The notes under the pieces: model-generated | Told to the model about the DNA's origin: nothing | The model's input: the letters and a program-made list of their open reading frames with translations, nothing else | Databases searched by the model: none | In this document: positions 23,881 through 32,948 of the stretch, piece after piece | Layout of the letters: every line of letters begins with the position of its first letter | Numbering within the stretch: position 1 is the first letter of the stretch | Position numbers and translations under genes: made by a program | Assembly (NCBI GenBank): GCA_036522515.1 | Contig: DATDFQ010000061.1 | Span: 1-64,000 of the forward strand | From: Bacteroidota bacterium | GTDB lineage: Bacteria > Bacteroidota > Ignavibacteria > UBA10030 > SZUA-254 | Direction of reading: 5' to 3' | DNA length: 64,000 bases

Positions 23881-23909
23881 TTGATATTGTGAGGCGTCCT
23901 ATTTATTAT
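23881..23909 (+). promoter_or_regulatory. sigma-70-type promoter of the stressosome operon
   Basis: TTGATA (23881-23886), 17-nt spacer, TATTAT (23904-23909). A start near 23916 would give a leader of about 130 nt before the RsbR start. This is the best -35/-10 match in the 320-bp gap between the Oar-like gene and rsbR. The rest of the gap shows only the hairpin at 23754. Confidence 0.6.
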
Positions 23910-24047: not shown

Positions 24048-24968
24048 ATGGCAAAGGATAACGGCAGTAAAAGGCAGCACACCGATACGCAGCCTTTGAG
24101 CGAGTCTACGATCTCCTTGCTCCGCGAGCTGGTGGCGCATCTGAGGGATAACCGCTCCCAACTGCGGCAGGACTGGGCCAGGCGAATCACCGAATCACAA
24201 TTCCTGACGGCAATGTCCCAGGATGAGGTCTTCGCCGAGGCGACCACGGTCTACGACAGCTATATCGGGGTCCTCGAGACGGGGAGCGTCGAATCGCTGC
24301 AAGCGTATGCGCGCGACCTGTCGGAGCGGATCATCCCGCGCGGAGTCGAGACTCATGAAGTGATCGGCATCGTGCTCCTCCTGCGCGACGTTCTGGCCCG
24401 ATTTCTGTTCGCAAAGTATCAGAATGATTTCGCCCTCCTTAACAGGATTCTTGACGTCTACGAGCCCGCTGCCAACCGGGTCGCCAACACCGTCGCGGTC
24501 GGTTTCGTGCAGGAGCGCGAGAGGATTATCAGGCAGCAGCAGGAGGCGATCAGGGAGCTTTCCACGCCGGTTCTCCAGGTGCGTGAGCGGCTCCTTATCC
24601 TGCCCATCATCGGAGTGATCGACTCCCAGCGCGCCAGGCAGCTCACCGAACAGCTGTTGCGGGGGATCCGGGCGAACCGCGCCAAGGTGGTCGTCATCGA
24701 TATTACCGGGGTCCCGTCGGTCGACTCCACGGTCGCCAACCACCTCGTGCAGACCGTCGAGGCGTCGAGACTGATGGGCGCCACTGTGATTGTCACCGGC
24801 CTTTCTTCGGAAATCGCCCAGACACTCGTCACGATCGGCGTCGATCTCGGAAAGATGAAAACCGTCGGAGACCTCCAGGGGGGAATCGAGGAAGCCGAAG
24901 GTCTCCTGGGATACAAAGTCAACTTATCAGATCAGGAACCGTCCGAGACGCTCAAGCAGGAGAACTAG
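24048..24968 (+). CDS. rsbR: RsbR-type stressosome scaffold/sensor (RsbRD-like N-terminus, STAS C-terminus)
   Basis: 306 residues. The N-terminal helical region at about 15-160 (LVAHLRDNRSQLRQDWARRI, YARDLSERIIPRGVETHEVI) looks like the RsbRD N-terminal sensor domain rather than a globin or PAS domain. A linker helix (ERERIIRQQQEAIRELSTPV) leads to a STAS domain at about 180-295. The STAS domain contains VVVIDITGVPSVDSTVANHL and GLSSEIAQTLV, where RsbR proteins have the RsbT-phosphorylated threonines. With the next two genes it should form the stressosome core. The ATG follows 'ttaggagg'. The signal sensed is unknown. Confidence 0.92.
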   Translation: MAKDNGSKRQHTDTQPLSESTISLLRELVAHLRDNRSQLRQDWARRITESQFLTAMSQDEVFAEATTVYDSYIGVLETGSVESLQAYARDLSERIIPRGVETHEVIGIVLLLRDVLARFLFAKYQNDFALLNRILDVYEPAANRVANTVAVGFVQERERIIRQQQEAIRELSTPVLQVRERLLILPIIGVIDSQRARQLTEQLLRGIRANRAKVVVIDITGVPSVDSTVANHLVQTVEASRLMGATVIVTGLSSEIAQTLVTIGVDLGKMKTVGDLQGGIEEAEGLLGYKVNLSDQEPSETLKQEN

Positions 24969-24999
24969 TCCACCCCCATCACAGAGGCAGGGGAACAGA

Positions 25000-25374
25000 A
25001 TGCGGGTTCCGATCCTTAAACAGGGCGAGTATCTCATTGCGATCATTCAGTCAGCCCTGACTGACGAAGACCTGCTGCAGCTCCGGGATGAGTTGACCGG
25101 ACAGGTCGGGAGGTATCGCGCCCGCGGAGTGATCGTCGACCTCACCGCTCTTGACGTCATGGATTCCTTCGCCACCCAGACTCTTCGATCACTGGCTCAT
25201 ATGATCAAACTGCGGGGCGCCGAGATGGTGATTGTCGGGGTTCAGCCCGAGGTGGCGTTTACGATGGTGCAGCTCGGGTTGACACTCGAAGGGATCTCGA
25301 CTGCGTTGGACCTTGAGGAAGGCCTCAGCCAGCTGAACCTTCGGGCAAAGGGAGCCATGGCGCGTGGAAGATGA
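25000..25374 (+). CDS. rsbS: RsbS, single STAS-domain stressosome core protein
   Basis: 124 residues forming one STAS domain. VIVDLTALDVMDSFATQTL carries the conserved D-S pair; Ser56 aligns with the serine phosphorylated by RsbT in Bacillus RsbS (DSF motif). The gene starts 31 nt after rsbR with 'aggggaacag' as ribosome-binding site. The Bacillus family member co-assembles with RsbR and holds RsbT until stress-triggered phosphorylation; the same role is inferred here from gene order and motif. Its 3' end overlaps rsbT by 11 nt. Confidence 0.93.
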   Translation: MRVPILKQGEYLIAIIQSALTDEDLLQLRDELTGQVGRYRARGVIVDLTALDVMDSFATQTLRSLAHMIKLRGAEMVIVGVQPEVAFTMVQLGLTLEGISTALDLEEGLSQLNLRAKGAMARGR

Positions 25375-25774
25375 GGTTCGGGTCTCCATCGGATCGGAGT
25401 CCGACATCGTCACCGCCCGCGAGCAGGGACGGCTGATGGCGCGGGAGATCGGGTTCGATGGAAGCCAGCCCACGGTGATCGCCACGGCTATCTCGGAGGT
25501 GGCGAGAAACATGCTCCAATATGCGGGGGGCGGGGAGCTCGTGATACGGCGGGTCCATCATAGCGTCAACGGAGGGATCATGATCGTGGCGAGAGATCAC
25601 GGGCCGGGGATCAAGGACCTCGACCTCGCCATGCAGGACGGTTTCACCACGGGCAGGGGGCTCGGAATCGGTCTTCCGGGCTCGCGCCGGCTGATGGACG
25701 AGTTTGAGATCTCGTCGGCAGTCGGCGAGGGAACGACGGTCACCATGAAAAAGTGGGTATTGCACGAGCGATGA
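25364..25774 (+). CDS. rsbT: RsbT, switch serine/threonine kinase of the stressosome
   Basis: 136 residues from a GTG at 25364, with 'aaaggga' 10 nt upstream. It is a GHKL-type ATPase: N-box ISEVARNMLQYAGG, G1 box ARDHGPGI, and the RsbT signature GRGLGIGLPGSRRLMDEF. In known modules RsbT phosphorylates RsbR and RsbS, leaves the complex and activates a protein with an RsbU-type N-terminal domain. Such a domain is found two genes downstream. It overlaps rsbS (11 nt) and the next gene (ATGA), so translation is tightly coupled. Confidence 0.93.
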   Translation: MEDEVRVSIGSESDIVTAREQGRLMAREIGFDGSQPTVIATAISEVARNMLQYAGGGELVIRRVHHSVNGGIMIVARDHGPGIKDLDLAMQDGFTTGRGLGIGLPGSRRLMDEFEISSAVGEGTTVTMKKWVLHER

Positions 25775-26382
25775 CCCTCCTCACCGAACACTCCACGCTC
25801 GACTGGGCAATCGCCGAACTTCCTCTCGCAGGGGAAGCCAGGTCGGGCGACCTGCACATCGTCAAACAGTTCGACCACAAATTACTCGTCGGTGTCGTGG
25901 ACGGCCTCGGGCATGGCAGCGCGGCGGCGGACGCTTCCCGGATCGCGGTCGACGTGCTGGAGGAAAACCCGCACGGCACGCTCGAGAGTCTGGTCGCGCG
26001 TTGTCACGGGAAGCTGAAGGGGACGCGCGGAGTGGTCATGAGCCTTGCCTCGATAGATCTTCGTGAGAACACCGCGACCTGGATGAGCGTAGGGAACGTC
26101 GAGGCCGTTGTCCTGCGGAAGGATCGTCCCGGGATCGAACATTTGATGCTCAACGGGGGAGTCGTCGGTTACAACCTCCCGCATCTTCGTCCGGCTCGCC
26201 TCGCTCTCAGCGAGGGCGACGTCCTGGTATTCGCCACCGACGGGGTGGCAGGGGAGTTCGCATCGGCCTTGAGCCCCTCGGAGCACCCTCAGAAAATGGC
26301 GGACAGAATTTGCGCGGATTTTGGGAAAGGGACGGACGACGCTCTCGTGCTGGTTCTCAAATATGGGGGATTGCGGACATGA
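25771..26382 (+). CDS. rsbX: RsbX-like PP2C/SpoIIE-type phosphatase
   Basis: 203 residues from ATG 25771, which overlaps the rsbT stop as ATGA. A GTG at 25753 is possible but less likely. A small PP2C/SpoIIE-type fold is shown by VVDGLGHGSAAADASRIA, GVVMSLASIDL, TWMSVGNVEAVVL, VLVFATDGVAGEF and GTDDALVLVL. The size and lack of extra domains match RsbX, which removes the phosphates placed by RsbT on RsbR/RsbS and so resets the stressosome. The gene order R-S-T-X is canonical. It overlaps the following kinase gene by four bases. Confidence 0.88.
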   Translation: MTLLTEHSTLDWAIAELPLAGEARSGDLHIVKQFDHKLLVGVVDGLGHGSAAADASRIAVDVLEENPHGTLESLVARCHGKLKGTRGVVMSLASIDLRENTATWMSVGNVEAVVLRKDRPGIEHLMLNGGVVGYNLPHLRPARLALSEGDVLVFATDGVAGEFASALSPSEHPQKMADRICADFGKGTDDALVLVLKYGGLRT

Positions 26383-27437
26383 ACGATCAGCACAAGGAAC
26401 TGACGGACGACTACACAAAGGGATTGAGCAATTACGTCTCCGGCGCCGGAGAGTCCGCGCTGCAGCACGCCTACGAACTCGGGCGGCGTGCGATCAAATC
26501 GGGGGTGGGCTGTCTCGACCTTGCCCATGTGCACCAGGAGGCTCTTGTCCAATCAATTCTCGGGGCAGGCTCCGGTCCGGAGGGCGCGCGCATCGCGAGG
26601 CTCGGGGGCGCTTTTTTCGAGGAGAGCCTCTCGCCGTACGAGATGACTCACAGGGGCTACCACGAGGTCATGACGGATTTGAGCCGCAGGGCTGCGGAGC
26701 TCGCGGTGCTCAACACGAGGCTCGAGCGCGAAATCGAGGAGCGCAAGAAGGCCGAGCGAATGCTGCGGGCGCTGCCGGAGCGGATTCTCGACGCGCAGGA
26801 GGCCGAGCGGAGACGCGTCGCCCACGAACTGCACGACGACGTCTGCCAGCGGCTCAGCGCGACAAAGCTCCACATCGGCGCGTTCGAGCAGGAAGTGAAA
26901 CAGAACCCCAGGCTGCGCTCAAAACTGCAGAACATCAAGCGGCAAATCAACATCAACATCAGGGAGGTCCGCCGCATCGCAGCTCATCTCAGGCCCGCGG
27001 CTCTCGACGAGATCGGCCTGCACGTGGCGCTGAGGCTCTTGTGCGAGGATTTTCAGCAAGTCAACCGCGCCACCCGGGCGCAGTTTGAGATGAAGGCGCC
27101 TTCCGCCGCCCGGGTCGGATCGCACGTGGAGCTGGCGCTCTATAGGATCGCCCAGGAGGGCCTCTCCAATGTCGCCAAACACGCGCATGCCAAAAAAGTG
27201 CTGGTCCGGCTCGGCCGCGAAAACGGATTCGTCCGGCTCGATATCCGCGACAACGGCCGCGGCTTCGAAGTCGACAGGCCGTCGGCGAACTCCACGCGCG
27301 GGTACAAGCTCGGACTCCTGAACATGAAGGAAAGGGCGGAGCTTCTCCATGGCTCGTGCAAGATCACATCTGCGCCGGGCAAAGGGACGCACATCCGGAT
27401 CGAAATCCCGGCAGCCACCGGGCCCTCTCATGAATAA
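26379..27437 (+). CDS. histidine kinase with RsbU-like N-terminal domain (candidate stressosome output)
   Basis: 352 residues from ATG 26379, which overlaps the rsbX stop (ATGA). Residues about 8-95 (LTDDYTKGLSNYVSGAGESA, AYELGRRAIKSG, HVHQEALVQ, FFEESLSPYEM) resemble the helical RsbU N-terminal domain, the part of RsbU that binds RsbT. A coiled coil (ERKKAERMLRALPERILDAQ) leads to HisKA_3 (VAHELHDDVCQRLSATK; likely phospho-His152) and an HATPase domain (IAQEGLSNVAKHA, IRDNGRGFE, LGLLNMKERAELLHG). There is no membrane helix. The inference is that released RsbT binds the N-terminus and controls autophosphorylation. Related stressosome/two-component loci are known in other bacteria (for example Vibrio). 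Confidence 0.87.
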   Translation: MNDQHKELTDDYTKGLSNYVSGAGESALQHAYELGRRAIKSGVGCLDLAHVHQEALVQSILGAGSGPEGARIARLGGAFFEESLSPYEMTHRGYHEVMTDLSRRAAELAVLNTRLEREIEERKKAERMLRALPERILDAQEAERRRVAHELHDDVCQRLSATKLHIGAFEQEVKQNPRLRSKLQNIKRQININIREVRRIAAHLRPAALDEIGLHVALRLLCEDFQQVNRATRAQFEMKAPSAARVGSHVELALYRIAQEGLSNVAKHAHAKKVLVRLGRENGFVRLDIRDNGRGFEVDRPSANSTRGYKLGLLNMKERAELLHGSCKITSAPGKGTHIRIEIPAATGPSHE

Positions 27438-28098
27438 GATCAAAGTCCTCTTTGCGGACGATCACGGAGTGGTTCGAAGCGGTCTGCGGGCGCTGTTCCG
27501 GAGTTCCCCGGAGTTTACCGTCGTGGGGGCGGCCCGCGACGGGGAACAGGCGGTTCGTTTGGCCGCGAAAACCAGGCCCGACATCGTCCTTCTCGACATC
27601 TCGATGCCGAAAATCAACGGCATCGAAGCGACCCGCATCATAAAGCGGGACAATCCCGAAAGCAGAATCCTGATCCTGACGATCCACGAGGACGAAGACT
27701 ATCTGTATGAGATCATCCGTGCGGGCGCGAACGGGTACGTCCTGAAAAGCGCCGAGAAGAGAGAGATCTTTGCCGCGGTGCACGCGGTCGCGGCCGGCGA
27801 GAGCTTTTTTAGCCCGGGCATGTCGAAACTCATCCTCGACGGGTTCATCAAAAAGGCGAAGGCCGAAAAACCGCAGCGGGAAACGGCCGGCGATCGCCTG
27901 ACCGCCCGCGAAGCGGAGGTATTACGGCACATCGCGCAGGGACTCTCGGGACCGAAAATCGCCGAAAAACTCTTCCTCAGCGTAAATACGGTGAACACGC
28001 ACCGGAATAACCTCATGCAGAAGCTGAATATTCACGACACCGCCGCGCTCGTCCGCTATGCGTTTGAGAACGGGTATTCCGATCTCACCCCCTCATGA
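27430..28098 (+). CDS. NarL/FixJ-type response regulator, partner of the stressosome-linked kinase
   Basis: 222 residues from ATG 27430, overlapping the kinase gene by 8 nt. The receiver has FADDHGVVRSGL, the phospho-Asp in IVLLDISMPKI, TIHEDEDY, and Lys in GYVLKSAEK. The LuxR-type HTH is about 160-220 (LTAREAEVLRHIAQG, KIAEKLFLSVNTVNTH, LMQKLNIHDTAALVRYA). The cotranslated layout makes it the expected phosphate acceptor of the upstream kinase, and it closes the six-gene operon. Target promoters are unknown. Confidence 0.93.
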   Translation: MNKIKVLFADDHGVVRSGLRALFRSSPEFTVVGAARDGEQAVRLAAKTRPDIVLLDISMPKINGIEATRIIKRDNPESRILILTIHEDEDYLYEIIRAGANGYVLKSAEKREIFAAVHAVAAGESFFSPGMSKLILDGFIKKAKAEKPQRETAGDRLTAREAEVLRHIAQGLSGPKIAEKLFLSVNTVNTHRNNLMQKLNIHDTAALVRYAFENGYSDLTPS

Positions 28099-28226: not shown

Positions 28227-29243
28227 ATGAACCTGGATTCTGGAGTTCTCGTTCACGAAGCGTCCCCCTCTGAAGGGGGGTCTCAAGCCCGGACACCGAA
28301 AGGGGTCGAACCGGTGCTCCTGGGACGGAGTGCGTCCATCGGCGAGATCCGGTCGGCGGTTGCGCTGGTCGCGAAATCTCCGACCGCCGTCCTCATCAGC
28401 GGGGAGAGCGGGACCGGCAAAGAGGTTGTCGCACGGCTGATTCATGCGCAGAGCGACCGGGCGAACAAGCCGTTCATCGCCGTAAATTGCGGAGCGCTTC
28501 CCAAGGATGTGATTGAGAATGAGTTGTTCGGCCACGAGAAAGGGGCTTTCACCGGGGCTCTTCCGAAAAAGGCGGGTTGCTTTGAGCTTGCCGAGGGGGG
28601 AACGCTGTTCTTCGATGAGCTCGCCGAAATGCACACGGAGACTCAGGTGAAGCTCCTCCGCGCGATCGAGCTGAAGTGTTTCCGCAGGCTCGGGGGGACT
28701 GAGGAGATACGCGTCGACGTCCGGACACTGGCGGCGACGAACCGGGACGTGTCGGCCGCCCTGAAATCGCGGGACTTGCGGGAAGACCTCTACTACCGTT
28801 TCAGCGTCATTGAAATCTTTATTCCGCCTCTCCGGGAGCGGAGGGAGGATATCCCGATCCTCCTTGAGGCGTTCCTCGGAGTGTTCGGCGAGCGATACGG
28901 GAGAACCGGCCAGTCGTTTTCTCCCGATGCGGTGGAAATGCTGACCGGGTTCGACTGGCCGGGTAACGTGCGCGAGCTGAAAAACGTCGTGGAGAGGGCG
29001 GTCGTCATGTGCCTGGAGGACGTCATCCATCCAAAGTATCTGCCCGAGAAGATCAACGGAAGCAGGAAACCATCCTCCCAGATCAGCATTCCCGTCGGAA
29101 CGTCGCTCAAGGGAGCGGAGAAGGCGATCGTTCTCCAGACGCTCGCCTCGGTGCAGGATAACCGGTCGAAGGCGGCGAGGGTGCTCGGCCTGAGCCGGAG
29201 AGCCCTGCTCTACAAGCTGCACCGGTACGAGAACGGGGTGTGA
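28227..29243 (+). CDS. sigma-54-dependent transcriptional activator without receiver domain
   Basis: 338 residues. After about 30 unstructured residues comes the AAA+ sigma-54 interaction domain: Walker A GESGTGKEV (59-67), the GAFTGA loop that touches sigma-54 (106-111), Walker B TLFFDE (126-131) and FDWPGNVRELKNVVERAV. A Fis-type HTH ends the protein (NRSKAARVLGLSRRALLYKL). There is no receiver, GAF or FHA sensor domain, so activity must be set by expression level or by a partner protein, as in PspF-like activators. It lies 128 nt after the stressosome-linked regulator. A well-matched sigma-54 promoter exists at 53977. Confidence 0.93.
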   Translation: MNLDSGVLVHEASPSEGGSQARTPKGVEPVLLGRSASIGEIRSAVALVAKSPTAVLISGESGTGKEVVARLIHAQSDRANKPFIAVNCGALPKDVIENELFGHEKGAFTGALPKKAGCFELAEGGTLFFDELAEMHTETQVKLLRAIELKCFRRLGGTEEIRVDVRTLAATNRDVSAALKSRDLREDLYYRFSVIEIFIPPLRERREDIPILLEAFLGVFGERYGRTGQSFSPDAVEMLTGFDWPGNVRELKNVVERAVVMCLEDVIHPKYLPEKINGSRKPSSQISIPVGTSLKGAEKAIVLQTLASVQDNRSKAARVLGLSRRALLYKLHRYENGV

Positions 29244-29253
29244 GAATAAAAGC

Positions 29254-29277
29254 AGCATCAGGCTTTCGCCCGATGCT
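29254..29277. terminator. hairpin between convergent genes
   Basis: AGCATCAGGC - TTTC - GCCCGATGCT, a 10-bp stem with one mismatch, 10 nt after the activator's stop codon and about 66 nt from the end of the oppositely oriented chitinase gene. No T-run follows, so it is a candidate bidirectional terminator only. Confidence 0.45.
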
Positions 29278-29343
29278 GGCTGGTGGATTCGCCGGAGAAC
29301 GGCGTGAATGCCCTGTCGCCCCTCTTGTTGCCTGCGACGTTCC

Positions 29344-32300
29344 TTACTTCAGGAGTACAAGTTTCTTGCTCTGCGTGAAGCTGCCGGCATCGAGCCTGTA
29401 GAAATAGGTGCCGCTTGGCATGCCGCCGGCATTCCAGACGGCCTGAAACGTGCCGGCGCCGAGCTCTCCGTCGAGTAGGGTCGCCACTTCCTGGCCGAGC
29501 GAATTATAGACCTTGAGTGTCGCATGCCCCGCCTCCGGAAGCTCGAACCGGATCGTCGTCGATGGGTTGAACGGATTCGGAAAATTCTGGCTGAGGGCGT
29601 ACGATTGCGGAATCCCCTCTTCTACCTGCTGCACCGAAGCAGTTCCATACGCGGAAACAAAAGTCCGCCTGTTTGAAGTCCTGAACGACCAGACCGCGGA
29701 CCACGAGCTCGTCCCGCCGGCGTTCGACGCATTCACCCGCCAGTAGTAGGTTGTGTTGCTTGAGAGGCCGGTCAACGCGAAGGAAGCCGCTGTCAGCGCC
29801 GCCTGATCCGAGACGAGGCCCGAGAAGGCGCTGCTGGCCGAGACCTGCAGATGGTATGAACTCGCTCCCGCCGCCGGGTTCCACGTCAGGGTCGTGCTGC
29901 CGGAGACCTTGCTCGCCCCGTTGCCCGGTGAAACCAGCGTCGGGACGGGCGGCGCATTCGGCGCGGAGGCTTGCGTCGCAAACGAAAACGTGTTCGACCA
30001 ACCGCTCGTTCCCGCGGAATTTGTCGCGTTCACTCGCCAGTAGTAGGTGGTTCCGGTTGCGAGCCCGGGAGCCGTCGCCTGGGTCGCCGCGATGCCGCTC
30101 TGATCGAGTGCGGTTGACGAAAAATCCGTTCGGACCGAAAGCTGCAGCCGGTACGATGATGCCCCCGTGGAGGCACTCCATGCCAGCGTCGGGTTCGTAG
30201 CAACGTTCGAGGCTCCGCTTACCGGGGCGCTGAGTGCCGGGACGGAAGGGACGGAGGCAACAGCCGTTCCCCCGAACCGGACGTCATCCACATAGAAGGT
30301 CTGCGCCGAACCGCTCATGTCCATGATATCCAGACGGCTTACCACTTGCCCGCCCGGATTCAGCTGGCTCATCGGGATCGATACCTGGACCCACTGGCCG
30401 GCCGCCGGTGCTCCGTAGCTGACGCGCGGAAAGGCCGTGCCGAGCTCGTTTTCGAACAGGAGCGATAATGAGACTCCCCCCGAAGGCGAGAAGATCGCAA
30501 GTTTGACGCTCGAATAAGACGAGGTGTTCACGTTGACGGGCGCTCCCCAGTTGCCCGAGTGCACGCTCAACCCTCCCCATGCGCTTTGGACGACCTTCAT
30601 CGAAGTTGCCCCGCTGTAATGCTGCTCGCTGTTCGAAAAATCGACCGTCGCGCCCCATGATGCGTCGATCCATGGCGCAAGCAATCCGTCCTGAGACACC
30701 CAGAGGTCGGATGTCGCCGGTTGGGCTGCGGCGGTCGTGAAACTATTGGCAGTCGACCAACCGCTGGTGCCGGCGCTATTCGTGGCGTTGACCCGCCAGT
30801 AGTAGAGCGTGCTGTTGGCCAGGCCGCTTGCGCTTGAAGCGGTGCCCTGGATTCCGCTCTGGTCCGCCGCTATTGTCGAGAAAGCCGGGCTTGCGGAGAT
30901 CTGGAGACGGTACGAAGACGCGCCCGTTGAAGAATTCCACGAGAGCGAGGGAGTCGTTGGGACGTCTGTCGCCCCGTTTGCCGGCGCGGCCAGGATGGGT
31001 GCTGCGGGTGCGACCGGCGCCGTCGCGGCCGTCGAGAAGCTGTACACACTCGACCATGCGCTCGTTCCGGCGCTATTCGTGGCGTTGACGCGCCAGTAGT
31101 ACGTGGTGGAGTTGGCAAGCCCGCTCACGGCCGATGAGAGCGGAACGAGCCCGGATTGATTCACGATCGCGGGTGCAAAGGACGTGTTGGACGCGACCTG
31201 CAGTCCGTAGGACGAGGCGCCCGTGGAAGCGCTCCAGGAGAGCGTTGCCGCAGTCGCCATTCCGGTGGTACCATTGAGCGGCATGGCGAGCGCCGGGGGA
31301 GCCGGCAGGGCCGGGGTGGGAGTCCCGCCGCCGATCGCCTGCTTCACCGCCTGCAGCAGCCGGTCCCGGTTCGGAAACGTCCCCGGGAGATACCCGCCGC
31401 CGAGCTCCCAGATGATGATTCCGCCGATTCCCTTGCTTCGGGCGTACTCGACTTTTTTCCGGCAGGTGTTCTCGTTGTCATAGGAAATAAACATGTCGCC
31501 GGTCGAACCCGCGTTGTCAAAACTAAGATACGAGGCCTGCGCGCTCGAATCCCACCGCTCGTTCGCGGACTGGTAGTAATTCTGAAGGATCGTGTAGTAC
31601 GGCACATTTGATTGGAGCGAGGGGGCGGCCGACCAGCTCTGGCGCGGAGCCGTAGCTCCTCCTGAAGGCGTTCCCGTGCCTCCACTCCAGACATAGCCGT
31701 AGAAATCGATCCCGATGCCCAGCTTGTTCGCCGCAATTCCGCCGGACACGAAATCGTCCACCATTCCGTTCGCCGAAGGGACGTACCCGCCGGTGCTCGG
31801 GAACTTGAACCCGCCGTCATAGATCGGGGAATTATGCCACGTCACCCAGCCCGGCCAGGGGCCCGACATGTCATAGGTCATGATGTTGACCTGGTCGAGC
31901 TTCGACTGAACCTGCGCGATGATCGCGGGCTGCCATCCGGTTGCCGCGGTGAGCATCGGTCGGGGGCTCACCCCATCCAGGGCAGTCCGGAGAGCGGTGA
32001 TGAATGCGACATACTGGTTTGCGTCGCCCGCATTCAACGGTTCCCAGTCGATGTCGACCCCGTCGTATCCCCGGCTCGTCGTGAACGAGACGATATTCGA
32101 AACAAAGGTGTTCATCGTTCCGCCGCTTGTCGCTCCCAGGAATCCACCCTCGGTGTTCCATCCGCCGATGCAGACCAGCGCCTTCCTGCCGGCGCCATGG
32201 GCCGCCTGCACCAGCGCGGCGGAGTTCGCCGGGCTGATGCTGTTGCTCAGATAATCGAGAGAGCCGTTGGTTTGCGGCACGAGAGCGAAGTGGATAATAT

Positions 32301-32460
32301 CCGTCACGGCGGAGTAGTCGATTTCCGAGGGGGGAAGGTACCCCTGGTTCCAGCCGGCATAGTAAGCGCTGACCCAGGGATTCGACTGGGCATGCGCGGT
32401 GAGAGTCGCGAGGGTTGTTGCGCCCCACACCAGAAGTAAGACGATGATGCGATGTTTCAC
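29344..32460 (-). CDS. secreted GH18 chitinase-like protein with FN3, carbohydrate-binding-like and T9SS domains
   Basis: 1038 residues from a GTG at 32460 (spacing 9 nt after 'aaaggag'; an upstream ATG at 32517 would skip this site). A signal peptide (HRIIVLLLVWGATTLATLTAHAQ) precedes the GH18 barrel at about 27-395. The catalytic DxxDxDxE motif is intact (GYDGVDIDWE, Glu140), with MTYDMSG and IIWELGGGYLPG also present. Two FN3 domains, a beta-sandwich of about 150 residues resembling a carbohydrate-binding module (TSMKVVQSAWGG, VSIPMSQLNPGG, TFYVDDVRFGG), two more FN3 domains and a T9SS sorting domain (NFPNPFNPSTTIRFEL) follow. It should be surface-attached or released and hydrolyse chitin or related N-acetylglucosamine polymers. 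Confidence 0.92.
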   Translation of the reverse strand: MKHRIIVLLLVWGATTLATLTAHAQSNPWVSAYYAGWNQGYLPPSEIDYSAVTDIIHFALVPQTNGSLDYLSNSISPANSAALVQAAHGAGRKALVCIGGWNTEGGFLGATSGGTMNTFVSNIVSFTTSRGYDGVDIDWEPLNAGDANQYVAFITALRTALDGVSPRPMLTAATGWQPAIIAQVQSKLDQVNIMTYDMSGPWPGWVTWHNSPIYDGGFKFPSTGGYVPSANGMVDDFVSGGIAANKLGIGIDFYGYVWSGGTGTPSGGATAPRQSWSAAPSLQSNVPYYTILQNYYQSANERWDSSAQASYLSFDNAGSTGDMFISYDNENTCRKKVEYARSKGIGGIIIWELGGGYLPGTFPNRDRLLQAVKQAIGGGTPTPALPAPPALAMPLNGTTGMATAATLSWSASTGASSYGLQVASNTSFAPAIVNQSGLVPLSSAVSGLANSTTYYWRVNATNSAGTSAWSSVYSFSTAATAPVAPAAPILAAPANGATDVPTTPSLSWNSSTGASSYRLQISASPAFSTIAADQSGIQGTASSASGLANSTLYYWRVNATNSAGTSGWSTANSFTTAAAQPATSDLWVSQDGLLAPWIDASWGATVDFSNSEQHYSGATSMKVVQSAWGGLSVHSGNWGAPVNVNTSSYSSVKLAIFSPSGGVSLSLLFENELGTAFPRVSYGAPAAGQWVQVSIPMSQLNPGGQVVSRLDIMDMSGSAQTFYVDDVRFGGTAVASVPSVPALSAPVSGASNVATNPTLAWSASTGASSYRLQLSVRTDFSSTALDQSGIAATQATAPGLATGTTYYWRVNATNSAGTSGWSNTFSFATQASAPNAPPVPTLVSPGNGASKVSGSTTLTWNPAAGASSYHLQVSASSAFSGLVSDQAALTAASFALTGLSSNTTYYWRVNASNAGGTSSWSAVWSFRTSNRRTFVSAYGTASVQQVEEGIPQSYALSQNFPNPFNPSTTIRFELPEAGHATLKVYNSLGQEVATLLDGELGAGTFQAVWNAGGMPSGTYFYRLDAGSFTQSKKLVLLK

Positions 32461-32513
32461 GATGAAGTTCTCCTTTACGAATGTTGATGATTGATGTTCG
32501 TTGTGCCCGGCAC

Positions 32514-32948
32514 TCAAGCGGGAGGCCTCTCCGGATCGGGATCAAACGGCGCCAGACTCTTCTGACCGGCAATGCGACCGGATTTCGGCTCCTGGGCAAG
32601 ACGCTCGAAGAGCGCCGCCAGCTCGAAGATCTGCGTCGATTTGTCGAAGAAAAAGGCCGCTCCGGCTTCGAGGCAGGTCTTCCGGTACCGCGGATCCGCA
32701 AGATTGGTGAGCATCACCACGACGATACCGGGATGATCCCTCCTGATCTGACGCAGGAAGTCGATCCCGCTCGCTCCCACAAGCTGGATGTCGAGGATGA
32801 CCACATCGGGCTTGAGGCTCGTCACCGAACTGATCACCAACGCGGAATCGGTGGTGTAGCCCGCGATTTCGACCCCTTCGACATCGGATAAGAGGGCTGC
32901 GAGCCGAAGGCAGATGAGAGGTGAATCGTCGACTATCAGTACTTTCAT
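32514..32948 (-). CDS. single-domain response regulator (receiver only)
   Basis: 144 residues from ATG 32948, where the receiver fold begins (MKVLIVDDSPLICLRL). A TTG at 32984 has a better-placed Shine-Dalgarno (aggag), and an ATG at 33005 is also in frame, so the start is uncertain. Phospho-Asp is in VVILDIQLVG, followed by VVVMLTN. The usual Lys is in FFFDKS. No output domain is present; the tail is Pro-rich. It is 53 nt upstream of the GH18 gene in the same direction and may be cotranscribed with it. CheY/Spo0F-like receivers of this kind act by protein contact or phosphotransfer. Confidence 0.85.
   Translation of the reverse strand: MKVLIVDDSPLICLRLAALLSDVEGVEIAGYTTDSALVISSVTSLKPDVVILDIQLVGASGIDFLRQIRRDHPGIVVVMLTNLADPRYRKTCLEAGAAFFFDKSTQIFELAALFERLAQEPKSGRIAGQKSLAPFDPDPERPPA

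Follow-up and report, generated by a model that had tools for sequence, protein, structure and literature searches.

A stressosome module in an Ignavibacteria genome whose switch kinase RsbT probably acts on a histidine kinase with an RsbU_N docking domain

The contig DATDFQ010000061.1 of a Bacteroidota bacterium belonging to the class Ignavibacteria (assembly GCA_036522515.1) carries a complete gene set for a stressosome, a stress-sensing protein complex, which runs directly into a two-component system. The cluster lies on the + strand at 24048-28098 of the 64,000-nucleotide stretch analysed here (positions 1 to 64,000 of the forward strand; hereafter the window). It begins with rsbR (24048-24968), encoding a globin-like, RsbRD_N-type sensor joined to a STAS domain with phosphosite positions S193 (first) and S227 (second), followed by rsbS (25000-25374) for the STAS scaffold with the conserved phosphoserine S56, rsbT (25364-25774; GTG start) for the GHKL switch kinase, and rsbX (25771-26382) for a PP2C-type feedback phosphatase, the ATG start of which overlaps the rsbT stop. 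The next gene encodes a histidine kinase (26379-27437; ATG start) composed of RsbU_N, a long helical linker, HisKA_3 with H152 and HATPase_c, and the sixth a NarL/FixJ-type response regulator (27430-28098; ATG start) with D56 and a LuxR-type helix-turn-helix (HTH). All six genes had been placed correctly in the initial annotation, which overlooked a probable seventh member of the operon, a gene for a sigma-54-dependent activator that has AAA+ and Fis-type HTH domains and no receiver (28227-29243, +).

At the refined start codons, rsbR and rsbS are separated by 31 bases, and the last four junctions, from rsbS-rsbT to kinase-regulator, overlap by 11, 4, 4 and 8 bases, two of them as ATGA. A good ribosome site, AGGAGG, stands just before rsbR. 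Pfam assigned STAS and a weak RsbRD_N (below the cut-off) to RsbR, STAS to RsbS, HATPase_c to RsbT, SpoIIE/PP2C to RsbX, RsbU_N, HisKA_3 and HATPase_c to the kinase, and receiver and GerE to the regulator. RsbR, RsbS and RsbX matched solved stressosome homologues of Listeria, Moorella and Bacillus (for RsbX, the solved RsbX 3w40 and the Moorella 3zt9), and RsbT matched solved anti-sigma F (SpoIIAB-type) proteins. The catalytic residues are intact in RsbS (S56), RsbT (E45/N49/D78, with N and G1 boxes), the kinase (H152) and the regulator (D56), as are the metal-binding D33/D50/D163/D196 of RsbX (numbering of the open reading frame from 25753), a single-domain PP2C adjoining RsbT. Judged from sequence, the locus is a minimal stressosome RSTX module, in which RsbR and RsbS form the scaffold, RsbT is the switch kinase and RsbX the reset phosphatase. 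The window contains no further STAS gene, no sigma70 gene and no stand-alone RsbW, which bears out the early observation that it holds no anti-sigma, anti-anti-sigma or sigma-B-like gene.

The domain that opens the kinase had escaped the initial annotation, and it lends the two-component output proposed there stronger support than was then apparent, since RsbU_N is the domain on which RsbT docks. It scored 28.8 bits against a Pfam (PF08673) cut-off of 25.5, over approximately residues 11-58 with homology to ~127; nucleotides 26379-26789 (+) encode the docking domain and the start of the linker. A profile of 25 relatives of the kinase N-terminus, searched against the PDB, found the four solved RsbU N-terminal structures (2j70, 2j6z, 2j6y and 1w53) as its top four matches (E 7e-8 to 5e-6), and a profile comparison with Bacillus RsbU gave an E value of 7.6e-8. 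RsbU_N is the only recognised input domain in the 352 residues of this kinase, and its relatives often insert PAS or GAF. In the AlphaFold2 (AF2) model, with a mean predicted local distance difference test (pLDDT) of 85.7 and a predicted template modelling score (pTM) of 0.49, four helices are followed by a long helix (residues 85-173) that contains H152, so that a helical linker is predicted to lead from RsbU_N into the effector domain in this monomer model; the catalytic part resembles DesK and VraS. In Bacillus, RsbT activates RsbU via RsbU_N and the linker (PMC12143880), and work cited in the same paper has Moorella RsbT controlling a GGDEF protein via RsbU_N. As the only RsbU_N in the whole genome sits on this kinase, no other target of RsbT is recognisable there.

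The same arrangement recurred widely among relatives. Scanning a single genome of each species with an RsbR alignment gave 244 relatives, and the best 80 were read; the sample, which is RsbR-selected and not a census, covers Acidobacteriota, Gemmatimonadota, Verrucomicrobiota, Nitrospirota, Planctomycetota, Bacteroidota/Ignavibacteria, Rokubacteria, Proteobacteria, Actinomycetota and Latescibacterota. Fifty-seven loci (56 from relatives plus the window) had all four RSTX genes followed by 3.5 kb or more of further sequence. The initial annotation had proposed a search for the six-gene order in related genomes, and RSTX followed by an RsbU_N kinase and a regulator was found in 43 of the 57 loci (42/56 without the window), distributed over Verrucomicrobiota, Acidobacteriota, Bacteroidota/Ignavibacteria, Rokubacteria, Proteobacteria and Nitrospirota. 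A seventh phylum, Planctomycetota, contributes a single locus (L118) with RsbU_N after RSTX, there as part of a PAS protein. A chance arrangement is excluded because the identical gene order recurs in dozens of other genomes, and the layout is neither rare nor, in principle, undescribed. The remaining loci comprised nine of Gemmatimonadota and Planctomycetota, in which a sigma-54 activator comes immediately after RSTX, and five others. The survey suggests that stressosomes of several phyla commonly have an RsbU_N kinase as their output.

Among 45 whole genomes from which these loci came, 39 had RsbU_N, once in 35 of them and twice in 4; the six that lacked it were exactly those in which RSTX precedes a sigma-54 activator or a PPM phosphatase. 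Within the phylum of the window, RsbU_N exceeded the cut-off in 8 of 396 genomes, all eight being among the 18 that carry RsbT; random placement would produce this with a probability of 3e-12 (7e-11 without the window; relatedness ignored in both). A weak match in genome G009 (21.1 bits, below the cut-off) was discarded, as the protein does not align with the kinases. The genes, their domains, the conserved catalytic residues, the gene order across phyla and this co-occurrence are all read directly from the genomes.

Two further genomes, G378 and G211 (98% complete), retain rsbT beside an RsbU_N kinase and a regulator (L080 6658-9272 and L081 5403-8418, respectively), and G378 also has a sigma-54 activator there. 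Unrelated genes occupy the positions expected for rsbR and rsbS, and searches detected neither RsbR nor RsbS elsewhere in the two genomes; the RsbR search was positive in two control genomes, and no control accompanied the RsbS search in its run. RsbT stays with the kinase where the rest was not found, which we take as strong comparative evidence for a functional pair. It is possible that they represent a stressosome-free RsbT-kinase switch.

We thus regard it as likely that the stressosome messenger RsbT acts in the window on a histidine kinase/NarL-type two-component system instead of a sigma factor, the kinase being very likely the route. In the absence of stress, RsbR and RsbS would hold RsbT. 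A signal at the globin-like domain of RsbR would make RsbT phosphorylate S56 of RsbS and leave the complex; free RsbT would then dock on RsbU_N of the kinase and order the helical linker next to it, which continues into the helix bearing H152. The ordered linker would change, and most likely raise, autophosphorylation and transfer to D56 of the regulator. The regulator would then alter transcription, probably in concert with the product of the following gene, the sigma-54 activator. RsbX would reset the complex by dephosphorylating RsbS. The binding of RsbT to the kinase, the direction of its effect, the signal, the regulon and the place of the activator belong to this model.

Several points weigh against it. 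(i) The similarity of the RsbU_N domain to Bacillus RsbU is low (~19%). (ii) The AF2 model is a monomer, and its pTM of 0.49 makes the link between the kinase domains unsure. (iii) In Vibrio vulnificus, no contact between RsbT and the output could be shown, although the output in that species lacks RsbU_N (Heinz et al. 2022, PMC9237108). (iv) The loci counted here were chosen for their RsbR similarity, and the relatives are not independent of one another.

Among the alternatives, the strongest assigns the main output to sigma-54 transcription, with the kinase and regulator mainly switching on or steering the downstream activator. The genome encodes sigma-54 and only ~13 clear sigma-54 activators, and the activator of the window lacks a receiver. 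Of the 43 loci that share the six-gene order, 17 have an activator after the regulator, among them most of those from Ignavibacteria/Bacteroidota (10/12 loci with an RsbU_N kinase and regulator, against 6/16 in Acidobacteriota), and nine further loci have one immediately behind RSTX. Nevertheless, the other 26 of the 43 lack one nearby, and cotranscription is only putative in the window, where the activator gene starts 128 bases after the regulator; no terminator-like site was detected on the + strand between them. Nor was a sigma-54 site found near the operon: the window contains 16 matches to promoter sites of this type, with 17.8 expected by chance, and none lies 5' of rsbR or the activator. 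We therefore regard sigma-54 transcription as an unlikely main output, if one to be taken seriously.

The nine loci with RSTX directly before an activator of ~470 residues (L120, L122, L125, L127, L135, L136 and L144 in Gemmatimonadota; L112 and L150 in Planctomycetota) may possibly represent a direct output from the stressosome to sigma-54. The N-terminus of these activators has no Pfam match and looks receiver-like by eye, and RsbU_N was absent from the five genomes of this type that were searched. It is attractive to speculate that stressosomes feed sigma-54 transcription in two ways, through an RsbT-controlled kinase, a regulator and a receiver-less activator in the group of the window, and through RsbT acting directly on the activator N-terminus in the Gemmatimonadota and Planctomycetota that lack RsbU_N, and that RsbT and the kinase can also switch without a stressosome; we put this combined picture forward as tentative, and rather doubtful as a whole. 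An incomplete literature search found no paper relevantly joining stressosomes with sigma-54 activators, Acidobacteria or Gemmatimonadetes, and the sigma-54 arm is possibly unreported.

A second alternative is Ser/Thr phosphorylation of the kinase or the regulator by RsbT, in place of allosteric docking on RsbU_N. Such a route was proposed by Heinz et al. for the Vibrio outputs without RsbU_N (PMC9237108), and the kinase residues of RsbT are intact in the window. The kinase studied here does carry RsbU_N, however, and the activation of RsbU in Bacillus is, by the title of Kang 1998, independent of the kinase activity of RsbT. We find this route very improbable.

The real target of RsbT might also be a PPM phosphatase elsewhere in the genome, with the kinase as a side branch. 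Modules that such a phosphatase could feed do exist. An rsbV-rsbW-STAS-ECF (extracytoplasmic function) operon lies beside a uracil phosphoribosyltransferase gene on contig C49 (6005-7704, -; locus L072), and contig C62 (3384-8149; L073) carries a second partner-switch module, in which a STAS gene and a HATPase gene are flanked by genes for two PPM phosphatases with GAF domains. The C49 operon is a partner-switch module on an ECF-type, not a SigB-type, sigma factor. The genome has 12 sigma70-family genes, of which seven could be classified, one as RpoD-like and six as ECF, and five are short (frames of ~160-195 residues) and unclassified; no SigB-type factor was found among the seven classified. 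The recognised inputs of the six other PPM phosphatases of the genome are GAF or receiver domains, the rest having none recognised, and RsbU_N was found in none of the six, either by Pfam or by a profile built from 66 relatives. A SigB-type output was sought throughout the genome with STAS, HATPase_c_2, SpoIIE, sigma70 and RsbU_N searches, and the partner-switch modules that emerged showed no link to RsbT. The initial annotation had held that a sigma-B-type switch elsewhere would refute a two-component output; the C49 operon answers to that description in letter, as it is a partner-switch sigma module, but its sigma factor is ECF-type and nothing was found that links RsbT to it. A PPM phosphatase is thus a very improbable target.

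Least probable is that the kinase and regulator form an independent two-component system merely adjoining the stressosome genes: the RsbT-kinase link at this locus is drawn from sequence comparison, but RsbU_N is the sole input domain of the kinase, the gene order persists from phylum to phylum, and rsbT remains beside the kinase even where RsbR and RsbS were not found.

The scaffold and the outputs have diverged to very different degrees. Across 54 complete loci, the median pairwise identity was 91% for RsbR STAS, 83% for the RsbR sensor, 74% for RsbS, 58% for RsbT, 47% for RsbX, 37% for RsbU_N and 36% for the kinase core; the RsbR parts are thus far more conserved than the outputs. S56 of RsbS, which aligns with S56 of Listeria, is invariant in 89 of 89 relatives. 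At the first phosphosite of RsbR, 66 of the 89 have Pro and the window has Ser (S193); at the second (S227 in the window), 54 of the 89 have Ser or Thr. As the RsbR phosphosites have eroded while S56 is invariant, switching in this RsbR group probably rests on RsbS.

The N-terminal sensor of RsbR is predicted to be globin-like (best Foldseek E 0.007). No proximal His was found in the putative F helix (predicted residues 82-98), and H103, which is nearly invariant, lies at the start of the following helix; in the predicted structure, the lack of an F-helix His appears to rule out a heme-globin RsbR of the Vibrio type. In a tree of RsbS, RsbT and RsbX, the window stands beside 15 Ignavibacteria/Bacteroidota rows (support 90), and the tree mostly follows phyla, a pattern that speaks for ancient inheritance and subsequent losses more than for recent spread. 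Recent horizontal transfer was accordingly rejected as the main cause of the ~80% RsbR identity, the adjacent genes being far more diverged. RsbT and RsbU_N are both missing from the two sampled genomes of the same family.

The kind of system described here is already known, because stressosome-linked RsbU_N kinases have been published for Proteobacteria (PMC9237108; PMC12143880). Heinz et al. (PMC9237108) reported that RSTX modules of Proteobacteria can precede kinases, cyclases or phosphatases and that some of these outputs bear RsbU_N, and an eLife paper of 2025 (PMC12143880) modelled the RsbU_N histidine kinase NreB (MBI3545564.1) and proposed that RsbT orders its linker. The window shares with these the RSTX order, RsbX directly after RsbT, the RsbU_N kinase next and the predicted RsbT control. 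The modules of Heinz et al. were gathered by heme-globin RsbR, whereas RsbR of the window is globin-like without the F-helix His, its host belongs to Ignavibacteria, and a sigma-54 activator follows. Vibrio vulnificus (VvD1, VvD2) also has RSTX, then two-component genes and no SigB, and such outputs are, as the initial annotation recognised, not new in themselves; the Vibrio outputs lack RsbU_N, however, and Vibrio RsbR binds heme (PMC9237108). The rsbRSTUVW-sigB-rsbX operon of Bacillus subtilis and Listeria has homologous RsbR, RsbS, RsbT and RsbX, with RsbU_N as the RsbT acceptor. In the window, by contrast, a histidine kinase replaces the phosphatase domain of RsbU, rsbV, rsbW and sigB are missing from the row, RsbX comes after RsbT, and the first RsbR phosphosite is Ser (Pro in most relatives). 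Moorella thermoacetica MtG, as cited in PMC12143880, likewise bears RsbU_N on a non-phosphatase effector under RsbT control, there a GGDEF diguanylate cyclase instead of a kinase. Among Gram-negative stressosomes, the best-studied, that of Vibrio, lacks RsbU_N on its output; the locus described here names a concrete predicted RsbT contact, and the survey suggests the sigma-54 activator as a recurrent further partner.

A tentative promoter-like site, TTGATA-17-TATTAT, lies 5' of rsbR (23881-23909, +; 10 of 12 positions match in a consensus scan), in a region with two such sites against 1.1 expected by chance, which is a weak signal. Beyond the activator, a GH18 chitinase gene (29344-32517) encodes a sorting domain of the type IX secretion system (T9SS), in agreement with the T9SS-bearing host of the initial annotation, and a terminator-like hairpin at 29253-29278 (-) fits its 3' end. 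Three other stressosomes of the phylum (L083, L085 and L088) have, after RsbT, a fused RsbT-like and RsbX-like protein of ~337 residues, followed by a kinase without RsbU_N (HisKA by Pfam in L083 and L085). A single contig can hold two RsbU_N kinases, the first within the stressosome row and the second ~10 kb from it, as in L154 (2565-2912 and 12472-12885) and in genome G428 (L142).

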